Below are positions 23,480 through 26,825 of a stretch of DNA of 64,000 bases, piece after piece. Position numbers and translations under genes: made by a program. Within the stretch, counting starts at the first letter, position 1. Each line of letters begins with the position of its first letter. Source of the stretch: Symmachiella dynata (GTDB lineage: Bacteria; Planctomycetota; Planctomycetia; Planctomycetales; Planctomycetaceae); the NCBI RefSeq assembly GCF_007747995.1, contig NZ_CP036276.1:7430001-7494000 (forward strand). The letters run 5' to 3'. The notes beneath the pieces were generated by a model that did not search any database, was not told the origin of the DNA, and saw nothing but the letters and a program-made list of their open reading frames with translations.

Positions 23480-23512
23480 ATACTTGACATGAAAACTATT
23501 GCCACGTAAGAT
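23480..23512 (+). promoter_or_regulatory. Promoter of marR with overlapping imperfect MarR operator
   Basis: TTGACA (23484-23489), a 17-bp spacer and TAAGAT (23507-23512) give a textbook sigma-70-type promoter 20 bp before the marR start codon. Positions 23480-23499 match the perfect palindrome upstream of pirin (24024-24043) at 15 of 20 bases, so the -35 box lies inside an operator. This predicts autorepression by MarR. Confidence 0.7.
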
Positions 23513-23532
23513 AACACGCGAAAGAGAAAATC

Positions 23533-24006
23533 ATGGCTAGCAAACTCCAAAACGAAATCAAAAAACGAAAACCGTTCGACCGGTTAGAAGAGGAAGCGAC
23601 GCTCAATTGCCTCCGCACCGTGGATTACATGCAAAGCCGAACGGCGAAACTGTTCCGCCGGTTTGGACTGACCTCGTCGCAATATAACGTATTGCGAATC
23701 CTGCGGGGAGAAGCCAAGCCGCTGCCATCGTTGGAAATTGCCAGCCGCATGATTCAACAGGTCCCGGCCATCACCGGTTTGATTGACCGACTGGAAAAAG
23801 CGGAGCACGTCAAACGGCACCGTTGCGAAAAAGACCGTCGAGTCGTCTATGTGGAAATCACCGATACGGGGTTGGCCGTCCTGAATAAAATTGATGAACC
23901 GTTGGTCGAACTGCAAACACAGTTTTTCGCACATATGCCGCGAAAAGATCTGCGGGAATTGATCCGCTTGTTGGAACAGGTCCGTAGCGGCGCGGTGGAG
24001 GATTGA
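23533..24006 (+). CDS. MarR family transcriptional regulator
   Basis: A 157-residue winged-helix regulator. Helix-turn-helix residues lie around LPSLEIASRMIQQVPAITGLIDRLEKA, and the wing carries RCEKDRRVVYVEIT with the conserved D-R-R. Two cysteines (Cys26 near the N-terminal dimer helix and Cys98 in the wing) could sense oxidants or electrophiles, as in OhrR/QsrR-type MarRs (inference). It is followed by pirin, 66 bp downstream on the same strand, with a perfect palindrome between them, and its own promoter contains a degenerate copy. The likely targets are itself, pirin and originally doxX. Confidence 0.9.
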   Translation: MASKLQNEIKKRKPFDRLEEEATLNCLRTVDYMQSRTAKLFRRFGLTSSQYNVLRILRGEAKPLPSLEIASRMIQQVPAITGLIDRLEKAEHVKRHRCEKDRRVVYVEITDTGLAVLNKIDEPLVELQTQFFAHMPRKDLRELIRLLEQVRSGAVED

Positions 24007-24015
24007 TGCGTTTTT

Positions 24016-24046
24016 TTGACCATATAGTTGACCAGTCAACTATTCT
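24016..24046 (+). promoter_or_regulatory. Perfect MarR operator palindrome in front of pirin
   Basis: Arms ATAGTTGAC (24024-24032) and GTCAACTAT (24035-24043) with a 2-bp centre form a perfect 20-bp palindrome, the usual size for a MarR dimer. A possible promoter, TTGACC (24016) and TATTCT (24041) with 19-bp spacing, would have the operator in its spacer. Binding would block pirin transcription. Confidence 0.72.
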
Positions 24047-24072
24047 CACGGAAACCATTTAGAGCGACTGTC

Positions 24073-24771
24073 ATGATCAAAATCCGAAAAGCAGATGAGC
24101 GTGGATTCGCCGACCATGGCTGGCTAAAGGCACGCCATACTTTTTCTTTTGCAGGCTACCGTGATTCGCAGCACATGGGCTTTCGTTCCTTGCGAGTGAT
24201 GAACGAAGACCGCGTCCAACCCGGTCGCGGCTTCGGCACGCATCCCCATCAGGATATGGAAATCGTGACTTACGTCCTCGAAGGAGCTATCGAACACAAG
24301 GACAACATGGGAAACGGCGAAATCTTGTGGCCCGGCGAATTCCAACACATGTCCGCCGGCACCGGCATCACGCATAGTGAGTTCAATCCCAGCAGCGATA
24401 AACCATTGCACCTGTACCAAATTTGGCTGAAGCCTCGCGAAAAGGGGATTACGCCCAGTTATGACCAAAAACGGTTTGATGATGCGGGGATGACGAATCG
24501 GCTGCGACTCGTCGCTTCGCCGGACGGCGCGGATGGTTCACTGGTGATCCAACAAGACACGCAGATTTTCTTATCCAAACTGACTGAGTCGCAACACCTG
24601 ACACACAACATCGCCTCAGAGCGCTATGCCTGGTTGCAAGTGCTGCGGGGAAGCGTGACGCTCAACGGACTCGACCTACAAACTGGCGACGGCGCCGCGG
24701 TGAGCGAAGAGCAACAACTAGAAATCATCGCCGCCACCGCTGCGGAAATCATGTTGTTTGATTTGAATTAA
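24073..24771 (+). CDS. Pirin family protein (YhhW-like bicupin)
   Basis: A 232-residue bicupin with the complete metal-binding set of YhhW/pirin: His57 and His59 (GTHPHQDME), His101 and Glu103 (THSEFN). The start is RKADERGFADHGWLKARHTF, strongly conserved in the family. YhhW shows quercetin 2,3-dioxygenase activity in vitro; the cellular role is probably linked to redox or aromatic-compound stress. The ATG at 24073 is preferred over an upstream in-frame codon at 24028 that lies within the operator. It is expected to be repressed by the adjacent MarR protein. doxX, a frequent companion, now lies beyond the IS110-type element. Confidence 0.92.
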   Translation: MIKIRKADERGFADHGWLKARHTFSFAGYRDSQHMGFRSLRVMNEDRVQPGRGFGTHPHQDMEIVTYVLEGAIEHKDNMGNGEILWPGEFQHMSAGTGITHSEFNPSSDKPLHLYQIWLKPREKGITPSYDQKRFDDAGMTNRLRLVASPDGADGSLVIQQDTQIFLSKLTESQHLTHNIASERYAWLQVLRGSVTLNGLDLQTGDGAAVSEEQQLEIIAATAAEIMLFDLN

Positions 24772-24786
24772 AACGTCACAACGTAG

Positions 24787-24804
24787 GTCAGGCAGCCGCC
24801 TGAC
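24787..24804. repeat. REP-like palindrome, copy 1
   Basis: GTCAGGCAGCCGCCTGAC, palindromic except at the centre, lies just after the pirin gene. A second copy follows 26 bp later. It may serve as a REP-type 3' structure. Confidence 0.6.
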
Positions 24805-24830
24805 ACGAACCACACCGGACGCTTAACGCC

Positions 24831-24848
24831 GTCAGGCAGCTGCCTGAC
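24831..24848. repeat. REP-like palindrome, copy 2, at the edge of the IS110-type element
   Basis: GTCAGGCAGCTGCCTGAC is a perfect 18-bp palindrome ending 5 bp before the sub-terminal inverted repeat of the IS110-type element (24854). IS1111-group elements are known to insert in REP or other palindromic sites. Confidence 0.65.
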
Positions 24849-24869
24849 CTTCTATGAAAGTTCGTTGCT

Positions 24870-25227
24870 TGTCAAGTGGCGATGCTGTGATGACGTGCGT
24901 CCCCATTCTTCTATCCGAGCAAGGGAATTCTCCCAGCCCAAGTGGGTGGCTTCGAGGTGATGTGACAGCCCCATCTACAGGACGAGCGTAGCGACACGGC
25001 GGCCGCCGGCCCAGGTCAGGCTCGAGCAAGTCAGCATCAGCACGGGTTAGCAATCATCATCAACAATCGTCACTTGCATTCACTTTTTCATTATACGTTC
25101 GATGAGCCTCGTTCGTCTCGCCGTCGTCTCGGCCTGCACAACCAGGAGGTCGAGAGGACGGCGTGGCGGGCGTGGCGACCCTCGTTTGTTGAGCTGGAGT
25201 TGAGGTCTGGACATGGCGAACGCTTTC
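24870..25227 (-). ncRNA. Candidate bridge-RNA-bearing non-coding end of the IS110-type element
   Basis: Inside the element, downstream of the transposase stop, there are about 355 bp without a supported gene but with several potential GC hairpins (for example around GGCGGCCGCCGGCC at 25000-25013). In IS110/IS1111 elements one non-coding end encodes a structured RNA that guides target and donor recognition; in the IS1111 branch this is usually the end downstream of the transposase. The assignment rests on position and length only; the exact RNA boundaries cannot be read by eye. Confidence 0.4.
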
Positions 25228-26241
25228 TTAAACGGAAATGGTTTTCATTTGATGGTACAACCAACGCATCCAACGGTTGCCGATCGCCGCCGCCACCACG
25301 CTGCCCGGCTTGCCGCGTCGACGCAAACGCGTGTTCATCTTCGACAGACGCAGGTCGTAACGGCCCAGGCGATGGGCGGTCTCGATGATCACACGCCGCA
25401 ATTCCGGATTCCCCGCCTTGATCAAACCGGCGTCCGCCTGGCGGTTTCCGCTGGAGGCATTTCGCGGAGTCATGCCGCAAAAACGAGCCAACTGTTTCCC
25501 CGTACGAAAGCGGTCGAACCGGCCGATTTCCGCACGCAACGTCACAGCCGTCACCAAGCCCACACCTTTGATCTCCAACAGTTTTTGGACGATCGCATCA
25601 TCGCAGGTCGCCGCGCAGAGACGTGCTTCGGCTGCGCGGATCTCCCGTTCCAATCGCTGCAGCGCCTCTAGATGCTGGTCCATCACCCACCGCATCTGAG
25701 GCGAGATTTCGTCTAGCCCGGCCAGCCAGTGCTGCCACGCTTTGGTCCAGCGGCGTTGCTCTGCGACGATACGTTCCTCGCGAAGCAGAGCCGTGATCCG
25801 CAACTTGACGTTTCGCCGCGCGGCGGCCAACTGTTGACGATACCGCACCAGCCTCCGCAGATCCCGCAACGACTCCGGTGGCATCCAGACCCGCGGAAGG
25901 TACCCCACACGTTCCAGGTCTGCCAACAAACGCGCGTCGCTGAAATCGGTTTTGTCGGGGCTTTGTTTGAGTTTGGCGACGTAGCCGGCATGGGCCAGAT
26001 CGACGGACCAACCCGTGTGGCGGACCAATTCTTCAGCAAAGTTGGCTGCTCCGGTACAAGCTTCGAGGGCGACGAAGACCCGTGCGGATTTGGGAACCAC
26101 CCCGCGCACCAGTAAGGCGACATGCTCCGCACTGTTCGGCGATTTGAGGTTAGCCAACACATTGCCCTCGCGATCCAACACGCAGACCTGAATGAACGAC
26201 TGGTGGTAGTCGAGTCCGACAAAAAACGATAAACTGGACAT
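25228..26241 (-). CDS. IS110 family transposase (DEDD recombinase)
   Basis: A 337-residue transposase with the N-terminal RuvC-like DEDD domain: Asp11 (FVGLDYHQSF), Glu60 (VFVALEACTGA), and Asp99/Asp102 (KTDFSDARLLA). The C-terminal transposase_20 domain contains LLEIKGVGLVTAVTL and GMTPRNASSGNRQADAGLI, including the conserved Ser region. The length is typical. The ATG at 26241 starts right before the conserved domain; an in-frame extension to 26298 would run into the inverted repeat. It appears intact and potentially active. Confidence 0.92.
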   Translation of the reverse strand: MSSLSFFVGLDYHQSFIQVCVLDREGNVLANLKSPNSAEHVALLVRGVVPKSARVFVALEACTGAANFAEELVRHTGWSVDLAHAGYVAKLKQSPDKTDFSDARLLADLERVGYLPRVWMPPESLRDLRRLVRYRQQLAAARRNVKLRITALLREERIVAEQRRWTKAWQHWLAGLDEISPQMRWVMDQHLEALQRLEREIRAAEARLCAATCDDAIVQKLLEIKGVGLVTAVTLRAEIGRFDRFRTGKQLARFCGMTPRNASSGNRQADAGLIKAGNPELRRVIIETAHRLGRYDLRLSKMNTRLRRRGKPGSVVAAAIGNRWMRWLYHQMKTISV

Positions 26242-26387
26242 GCTCGTTGCTCCTGATAGGACCAAATTGTTGCGTGAAATCAAACTTGGTTGTATCACAG
26301 CAACGAGCTTTCATCCCCATCTACTCTTTGGGTCCCAAAGTTAAAGTGGCCCTCCCGACTAACACCCCCCCATTCGGAGCAATTGCG

Positions 26388-26825
26388 ATGCTAGGTCTCG
26401 TCAACGTTCTCGGCCGCGTGATGTTGTGCACGATCTTTTTGATGAGTGCGGTGGGGAACAAGATCCCCAAATTCAGCGGCGTCGTGAAATATATGGAAAG
26501 CGCCGGAGTCCCCGCGCCGCAAATCATGTTGGTCGGCGCCATCGTGTTTTTGATCGCCGGCAGCCTGTCGGTGATCCTCGGCTACAAGGCCCGTATCGGT
26601 GCCAGCCTGCTGTTGGTGTTTTTGATTCTGGCGACCTATTACTTCCACGACTTCTGGAATATCGAGGACGTTCAACAAAAACAAACGCAGATGATTGCGT
26701 TCATGAAGAACCTATCCATGATGGGCGCGATGCTGATGATCATAGCCAACGGCACCGGCGCCATAAGCCTCGACAAAAAATCACTCGCCGTCCAACCCGA
26801 AGCAAGTAAAACCGAATCCGCGTAG
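26388..26825 (+). CDS. DoxX family membrane protein
   Basis: A 145-residue protein with four hydrophobic helices: VNVLGRVMLCTIFLMSAVG, the helix following PAPQIMLVGAIVFLIAG, LLLVFLILATYYFH and a C-terminal one (MGAMLMIIANG). It carries the DoxX sequence pattern KIPKFSGVVKYMESAGVP and the C-terminal YYFHDFW. DoxX proteins sit in the inner membrane and are linked to oxidative stress and electron transfer. MarR-pirin-DoxX groupings recur in bacteria. Here the IS110-type element lies between pirin and this gene, so it has probably lost its original promoter. The ATG at 26388 has a weak CGGAG site. Confidence 0.85.
   Translation: MLGLVNVLGRVMLCTIFLMSAVGNKIPKFSGVVKYMESAGVPAPQIMLVGAIVFLIAGSLSVILGYKARIGASLLLVFLILATYYFHDFWNIEDVQQKQTQMIAFMKNLSMMGAMLMIIANGTGAISLDKKSLAVQPEASKTESA

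Follow-up and report, generated by a model that had tools for sequence, protein, structure and literature searches.

Genes and operators of the locus

The window analyzed here is a 64,000-nt stretch of contig NZ_CP036276.1 of Symmachiella dynata, whose genome contains 7,767,809 bases. It encodes a MarR-family repressor followed by a pirin, with two predicted operators, a copy ahead of marR (site U) and a second one between marR and pirin (site D). The features discussed below are as follows, with the strand in parentheses where one applies.

23480..23499: operator copy before marR (site U), which holds the -35 TTGACA; pattern search, family motif score 18/20
23484..23489 (+): -35 element TTGACA of the marR promoter; promoter scan; 79/89 U rows have TTG at -11 (±1) relative to the best site
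23495..23514: second, weak frame of the operator, shifted 15 bp downstream; motif score 13/20
23507..23512 (+): -10 element TAAGAT, 17-bp spacer; promoter scan
23533..24006 (+): marR, MarR-family repressor, 157 aa; PF01047 8.5e-11, 3u2r 3.2e-26
24011..24017 (+): coding-strand T7 tract, separated from D by 6 nt; T-run of ≥5 there in 43/59 D sites
24024..24043: site D, an operator with perfect palindromic symmetry in the marR-pirin intergenic region; pattern searches of window and genome
24073..24771 (+): pirin, YhhW-type bicupin (quercetinase-like), 232 aa, ATG at 24073; PF02678, PF17954, 6uts 3e-84, 1tq5 3.5e-84
24783..24852: two REP-like palindromes, 24783-24804 and 24831-24852; repeat search
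24830..26324 (-): IS110 block, 1495 bases, REP remnant at the left end, transposase at 25228-26298; genome comparison and profile match
26388..26825 (+): doxX, an operon member in relatives, cut off by IS110 here; PF07681, adjoins pirin in L098

The MarR protein scored 42 bits against PF01047 (cutoff, 24.6) and fell under the cutoff of all 11 NCBIfam equivalog models listed, among them HpaR (55.8 versus 121.2), OhrR (33.9 versus 200), FabT, and SlyA. Its best solved match, over residues 6 to 152, was 3u2r ("Regulatory protein MarR"; 3.2e-26), which we take to be of planctomycete origin and which differs in having a Lys opposite Cys98 of the window MarR in the alignment. The Pirin (PF02678) and Pirin_C_2 (PF17954) cupins place the downstream protein among the YhhW-type pirins/quercetinases. 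Its HPH and HSE stretches are preserved in the alignment with the solved matches, and a dioxygenase activity can at most be predicted.

Site D (ATAGTTGACCAGTCAACTAT) is a perfect 9-2-9 palindrome that was found with 0 mismatches in a pattern search of the window, and site U (ATACTTGACATGAAAACTAT) has 3 mismatches in the 18 specified positions and the same base as D at 15 of 20. The marR promoter (TTGACA-17-TAAGAT) scored 10/12 in the promoter scan, and its -35 element falls inside the copy at 23480. Both the palindrome and the partial copy over the -35 of a near-ideal sigma-70 promoter had been described in a first-pass annotation of this DNA, and both were confirmed. U and D were the only matches in the window at ≤3 mismatches (0.01 expected; two matches in 0 of 100 shuffles), and no Rfam matches were found in the window. 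The genome search that the first-pass annotation had proposed recovered the window pair and little else: at ≤3 mismatches there was one further place, C1:2458712 (no control matches), and a degenerate form of the motif returned C1:2458712 and C1:1004887 versus two control places. Both places lie within mechanically listed open reading frames and match more poorly than the window pair, so that additional operators in this genome were rejected; no further intergenic operator was found there at ≤3 mismatches or with the degenerate form.

We also considered that the U operator of the window had shifted onto the -35 element. This idea was dropped, as in relatives the site with TTGAC at its -11 position lies 15 bp further downstream, which suggests that two tandem frames share the promoter. 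The upstream frame would be the better match in the window, and the weak frame at 23495..23514 probably corresponds to the better-matching frame of most relatives.

The operator pair and the operon in relatives

Of 397 genomes sampled from the planctomycete class, 150 contained MarR relatives (E ≤ 1e-35). In a first comparison, the window palindrome served as the pattern, with 300 shuffles per stretch and a threshold of p < 0.05. Among the 28 stretches other than the window that contain pirin or doxX, a site was found before marR in 24, after marR in 25 (at least one of which, in L062 at +106, falls inside the next gene), and at both places in 23; the corresponding counts for the 17 stretches without pirin or doxX were 8, 2, and 0. 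This comparison argues for the two-operator, autoregulated MarR-pirin unit that the first-pass annotation had envisaged. That annotation had not counted doxX among the operon genes and had overlooked the IS110 split, the T-tract, and the unlinked sites in relatives. An enlarged set comprised 97 loci whose MarRs were <90% identical to one another, with kinship between genomes ignored in the counts. Operators were placed at the best-matching position within 110 nt ahead of marR or 130 nt past its end and were kept at a score of ≥15/20. A site preceded marR in 89 of the 97 loci and followed it in 59 of the 73 with pirin or doxX downstream. The family motif is ATAGTTTACATGTAAACTAT-like.

Some observations were made on more distant arrangements. 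Eight loci (L051, L052, L058, L059, L065, L067, L068, and L070) carry a paralogous marR in a conserved neighborhood lacking pirin and doxX, and a second site at p < 0.05 was found in none of them. In L074, a remoter MarR paralog is followed by an OYE-family gene, and an operator-like site there is preceded, at a distance of about 7 nt, by a T8; the arrangement may thus extend beyond the pirin loci. Relatives on Deinococcus plasmids (L243 to L245) have VOC-DoxX-VOC genes after MarR in one case, VOC in another, and a hypothetical gene in the third. A different palindrome (GGTGTTATAACACC-like) can be made out by eye before marR in all three and after it in two, without a T-tract.

Both pirin and doxX lie downstream of marR in 20 of the 28 stretches with either gene, and genes for SDR and FMN reductase also occur within the linked operons of relatives. 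In the congener G418, whose MarR is 93% identical, the pirin and doxX matches are adjacent, without the IS110 block between them. The 1495-base block is present in five copies in the S. dynata genome (99 to 100% identity), and a REP-like palindrome lies at the left edge of all five, with inner bases that vary between copies. Such palindromes numbered 40 genome-wide at ≤1 mismatch, with 0 in a reversed control. Across 24783-26324, the left-edge palindrome reads GTCAGGC..GCCTGACCT, followed by CTAC at the right end. It is likely that the second REP-like palindrome (24831-24852) is the target that was broken by the insertion. The element that parts pirin from doxX here thus looks like a REP-targeting IS110 resembling IS621, a member of the same family for which the cited part of the literature describes insertion mostly in REP elements (PMC11208160); other insertion sequences are also described as inserting in REPs (PMC1525189, in the part cited).

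Sequences flanking sites U and D

The two sites differ in their flanks. At U, TTG was found at -11 (±1) in 79/89 sites and TAnnnT at +12 in 78/89, 17 bp apart, which indicates that the operator covers the spacer and the -10 element of a sigma-70-like promoter. A scan for sigma-70-like promoter pairs that is independent of these offsets gave the same picture (71/89 at U; 8.4 expected). At D, in contrast, TAnnnT at +12 occurred in 14/59 sites (0.24 versus 0.88 at U); its frequency peaked at 0.32 at offset 1, a position inside the motif (0.39 there at U). What D has is a run of ≥5 T at a set place just upstream, which was seen in 43/59 D sites and in 0/89 U sites. A run of this length lies somewhere in the 30 nt upstream of 44 D sites; its last T falls at -7 in 35 of these and between -8 and -6 in 43. 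The start of the run varies from 0 to 106 nt past the marR stop codon, so its place is tied to the operator and not to the stop. The run is missing from that place in 16/59 D sites, including that of the congener L095.

A second set of loci was collected after the T-run rule had been formed, except for L095 to L097; L095 and L097 account for 2 of its 37 D rows, and 20 of its 78 loci were removed because their MarR was ≥90% identical to another. At loci with targets, the run was present at 24/37 D sites and 0/48 U sites. At loci for which targets were not found, the counts were 1/2 and 0/9.

The motif was also matched, at ≤1 to 3 mismatches, in front of unlinked genes in other genomes: pirin, an OYE-family flavin oxidoreductase, an isochorismatase-like hydrolase, a LigB-type dioxygenase, HlyD-type efflux adaptors, and a DoxX gene. 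The predicted unlinked targets in L112, L238, L239, L236, L237, and L224 include an OYE-type flavin oxidoreductase, HlyD-type efflux adaptors, and the DoxX gene. From the 22 sites given, 3 at marR genes and 1 without a printed open reading frame were set aside, which left 18, several of them orthologous and some possibly chance matches. None of the 18 has a T-run at the D-type place, although L241 has a slightly displaced T5AT3; for the Fisher test this was entered as 0/12 groups, which were counted roughly by eye. TAnnnT lies at +12 in 13 to 14 of the 18 and TTG at -11 in 2, so promoters at unlinked sites are not all U-like.

The first-pass annotation had predicted a switch with two promoters, one at each operator. 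No promoter was listed at D in the scan of the window, and promoter pairs at the D sites of relatives were not above chance in the scan that found them at U (4/59 versus 6.4 expected). A sigma-70 promoter at D was therefore rejected, and the two-promoter switch lost its support, since D is preceded by the T-run (43/59 versus 0/89 at U) in place of a promoter above chance. It could still be that D covers a second pirin promoter that is weak or not of the sigma-70 type, with the T-tract as its -35-like or UP-like upstream element. The tract does sit where U has TTGAC, and the right half of some D sites reads, by eye, AATAAT or AATAGT. Against this stand the promoter-like pairs at D (4 where 6.4 were expected), a TAnnnT that reaches 0.32 at an offset within the motif and 0.24 at +12, where U has 0.88, and the T-run count of 0/18 at unlinked sites, though 13 to 14 of these have TAnnnT at +12. 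We regard a concealed promoter of this kind as unlikely.

D might also serve as an auxiliary operator by looping to U over 544 bp, with the T-tract aiding DNA bending. Two similar sites do flank the regulator gene, but the operator is palindromic, the tract is confined to one side and one strand (an A-run occurs at the mirror place in 1/59 D sites), and bending needs neither restriction; looping is, in our judgment, very improbable. Intrinsic termination was rejected for D as well, since a stable hairpin before the T-tract lacked support (mean z of 0.10, n = 43). No hairpin signal precedes the T7 tract of the window, and among the relatives the mean z indicates none, yet 12 of the 43 stretches fold below -10 kcal/mol. 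There is likewise a slim chance that the tract acts in the RNA, by attenuation, cleavage, or 3' end formation, with the repressor not involved. It would be cotranscribed with marR and starts ≤28 nt from the stop codon in all but two counted rows; its distance is nevertheless fixed with respect to the operator and variable with respect to the stop, and this explanation also has to reckon with the lack of a hairpin signal and of any Rfam match in the window.

Sensing and the candidate inducer

In Cys-based MarR redox sensors, the sensing Cys is conserved and lies in the N-terminal helix. The window MarR has two Cys residues, 26 and 98, as the first-pass annotation had noted in proposing that the protein might detect oxidants or electrophiles through them. 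Cys26 does not show such conservation: 1 of the 97 MarRs has it, and that of the congener G418 does not. Cys98, which by alignment probably lies near the DNA-binding wing, is common (75/97) but is replaced in 22/97, mostly by Ser. The quinone sensor MhqR, moreover, is described as acting without a thiol mechanism (PMC6798810, in the part cited). Detection through the cysteines thus appears quite unlikely to us, and a thiol switch is no likelier than a ligand pocket. Quinones, other electrophiles, or aromatic compounds are the leading candidates for the inducer, as suggested by the families of the predicted targets in relatives.

A proposed single promoter and roadblock

We hypothesize that the operon has a single autorepressed promoter, at U, and that MarR bound at D acts as a roadblock against read-through into pirin-doxX; judged on the comparative sequence data, this is probably the correct reading, with appreciable room for doubt. 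MarR would control the single promoter U, which would drive marR-pirin-doxX, and by binding over the -35, spacer, and -10 it would block initiation. Any polymerase that leaked past U would copy marR and then, while its RNA:DNA hybrid is rich in U, run into MarR on D, where it would pause, backtrack, or be removed. A little MarR would thereby be made while pirin and doxX stay silent, and an inducer would free both sites and allow transcription of the entire operon. The comparison of relatives shows two sites with differing flanks and, at D, neither a sigma-70-like promoter above chance nor a hairpin signal; the proposal adds to this that MarR would bind U and D, together with the roadblock itself, the role of the T-tract, and the identity of the inducer.

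The roadblock reading is favored by the way in which the site pair tracks the targets, with both sites in 23/28 stretches that have pirin or doxX versus 0/17 of those that do not. Judged by the consensus scan only, and with cotranscription assumed, D is an operator in a transcribed region without a promoter of its own. Other findings count against this reading: the 16/59 D sites without a T-run, the 12/43 stretches before the run that fold below -10 kcal/mol, and, at unlinked sites, the TTG at -11 in just 2/18 and the T5AT3 of L241 near the expected place. For yeast RNA polymerase I, the cited part of one study reports that a roadblock and a T-rich tract without an RNA hairpin do not lead to release of the RNA (PMC12366685).

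Comparison with known systems

In Bacillus subtilis, MhqP is a DoxX-type partner. MhqR of Staphylococcus aureus may be the closest functional analog of this MarR, a likeness to a quinone regulon being predicted from the target families. As described in the cited part of the MhqR study, it is a MarR-type repressor encoded in its own operon with a 9-9 bp inverted-repeat operator, and that part gives one operator, upstream of the operon (PMC6798810); the locus analyzed here differs in its operator sequence, its pirin, and its second operator with a T-tract.

Roadblocks by CodY, CcpA, PurR, GalR, and LacI are similar in that elongation is blocked by a repressor sitting past the transcription start, and they differ in that a fixed T-tract is not described in the cited part of the source (PMC10310618); roadblocking by LacI, CodY, and CcpA is reported to drop without Mfd (PMC4132739, in the part cited). 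In arsenic bioreporters, an additional ArsR site engineered into the stretch between arsR and the target gene downstream cuts leak and lowers the background; the part of the source cited does not mention a T-tract (PMC3918153), whereas the arrangement here is natural and conserved.

The terminators of RNA polymerase I (Reb1/Nsi1 and TTF1) share a T-rich nontemplate tract upstream of a DNA-bound roadblock, and in yeast the roadblock pauses the enzyme within the tract, 15 bp before the roadblock site; they are eukaryotic, need an RNA hairpin for release, and are not ligand gated, according to the part of the source cited (PMC12366685). At D the tract is present without a hairpin signal. It is conceivable, at somewhat below an even chance, that the U-tract with MarR 6 bp further on forms a ligand-gated, hairpin-less conditional terminator that separates a regulator gene from the genes it controls, natural in bacteria and conserved across many lineages of the sampled planctomycete class, which would make it a bacterial counterpart of the T-rich/Reb1 arrangement. 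A search of open papers by titles and abstract openings, which covered MarR with pirin, DoxX, and planctomycetes, the motif, roadblocks, T-rich tracts, and auxiliary ArsR sites, found no report of this arrangement among the matches listed.

To our knowledge, few regulators have been mapped in planctomycetes, as the first-pass annotation also stated, and the ATAGTTTACATGTAAACTAT-like motif offers a transferable operator motif for the phylum together with a predicted stress regulon. An autorepressor must leak in order to be made, but the genes that it controls should stay silent. An operon with one promoter may solve this problem in the way that this arrangement suggests, with a second operator and a T-tract that would filter the leak. 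The additional ArsR site was engineered with the same aim (PMC3918153, in the part cited), and many wild lineages appear to have such a site already, plus an extra sequence element.
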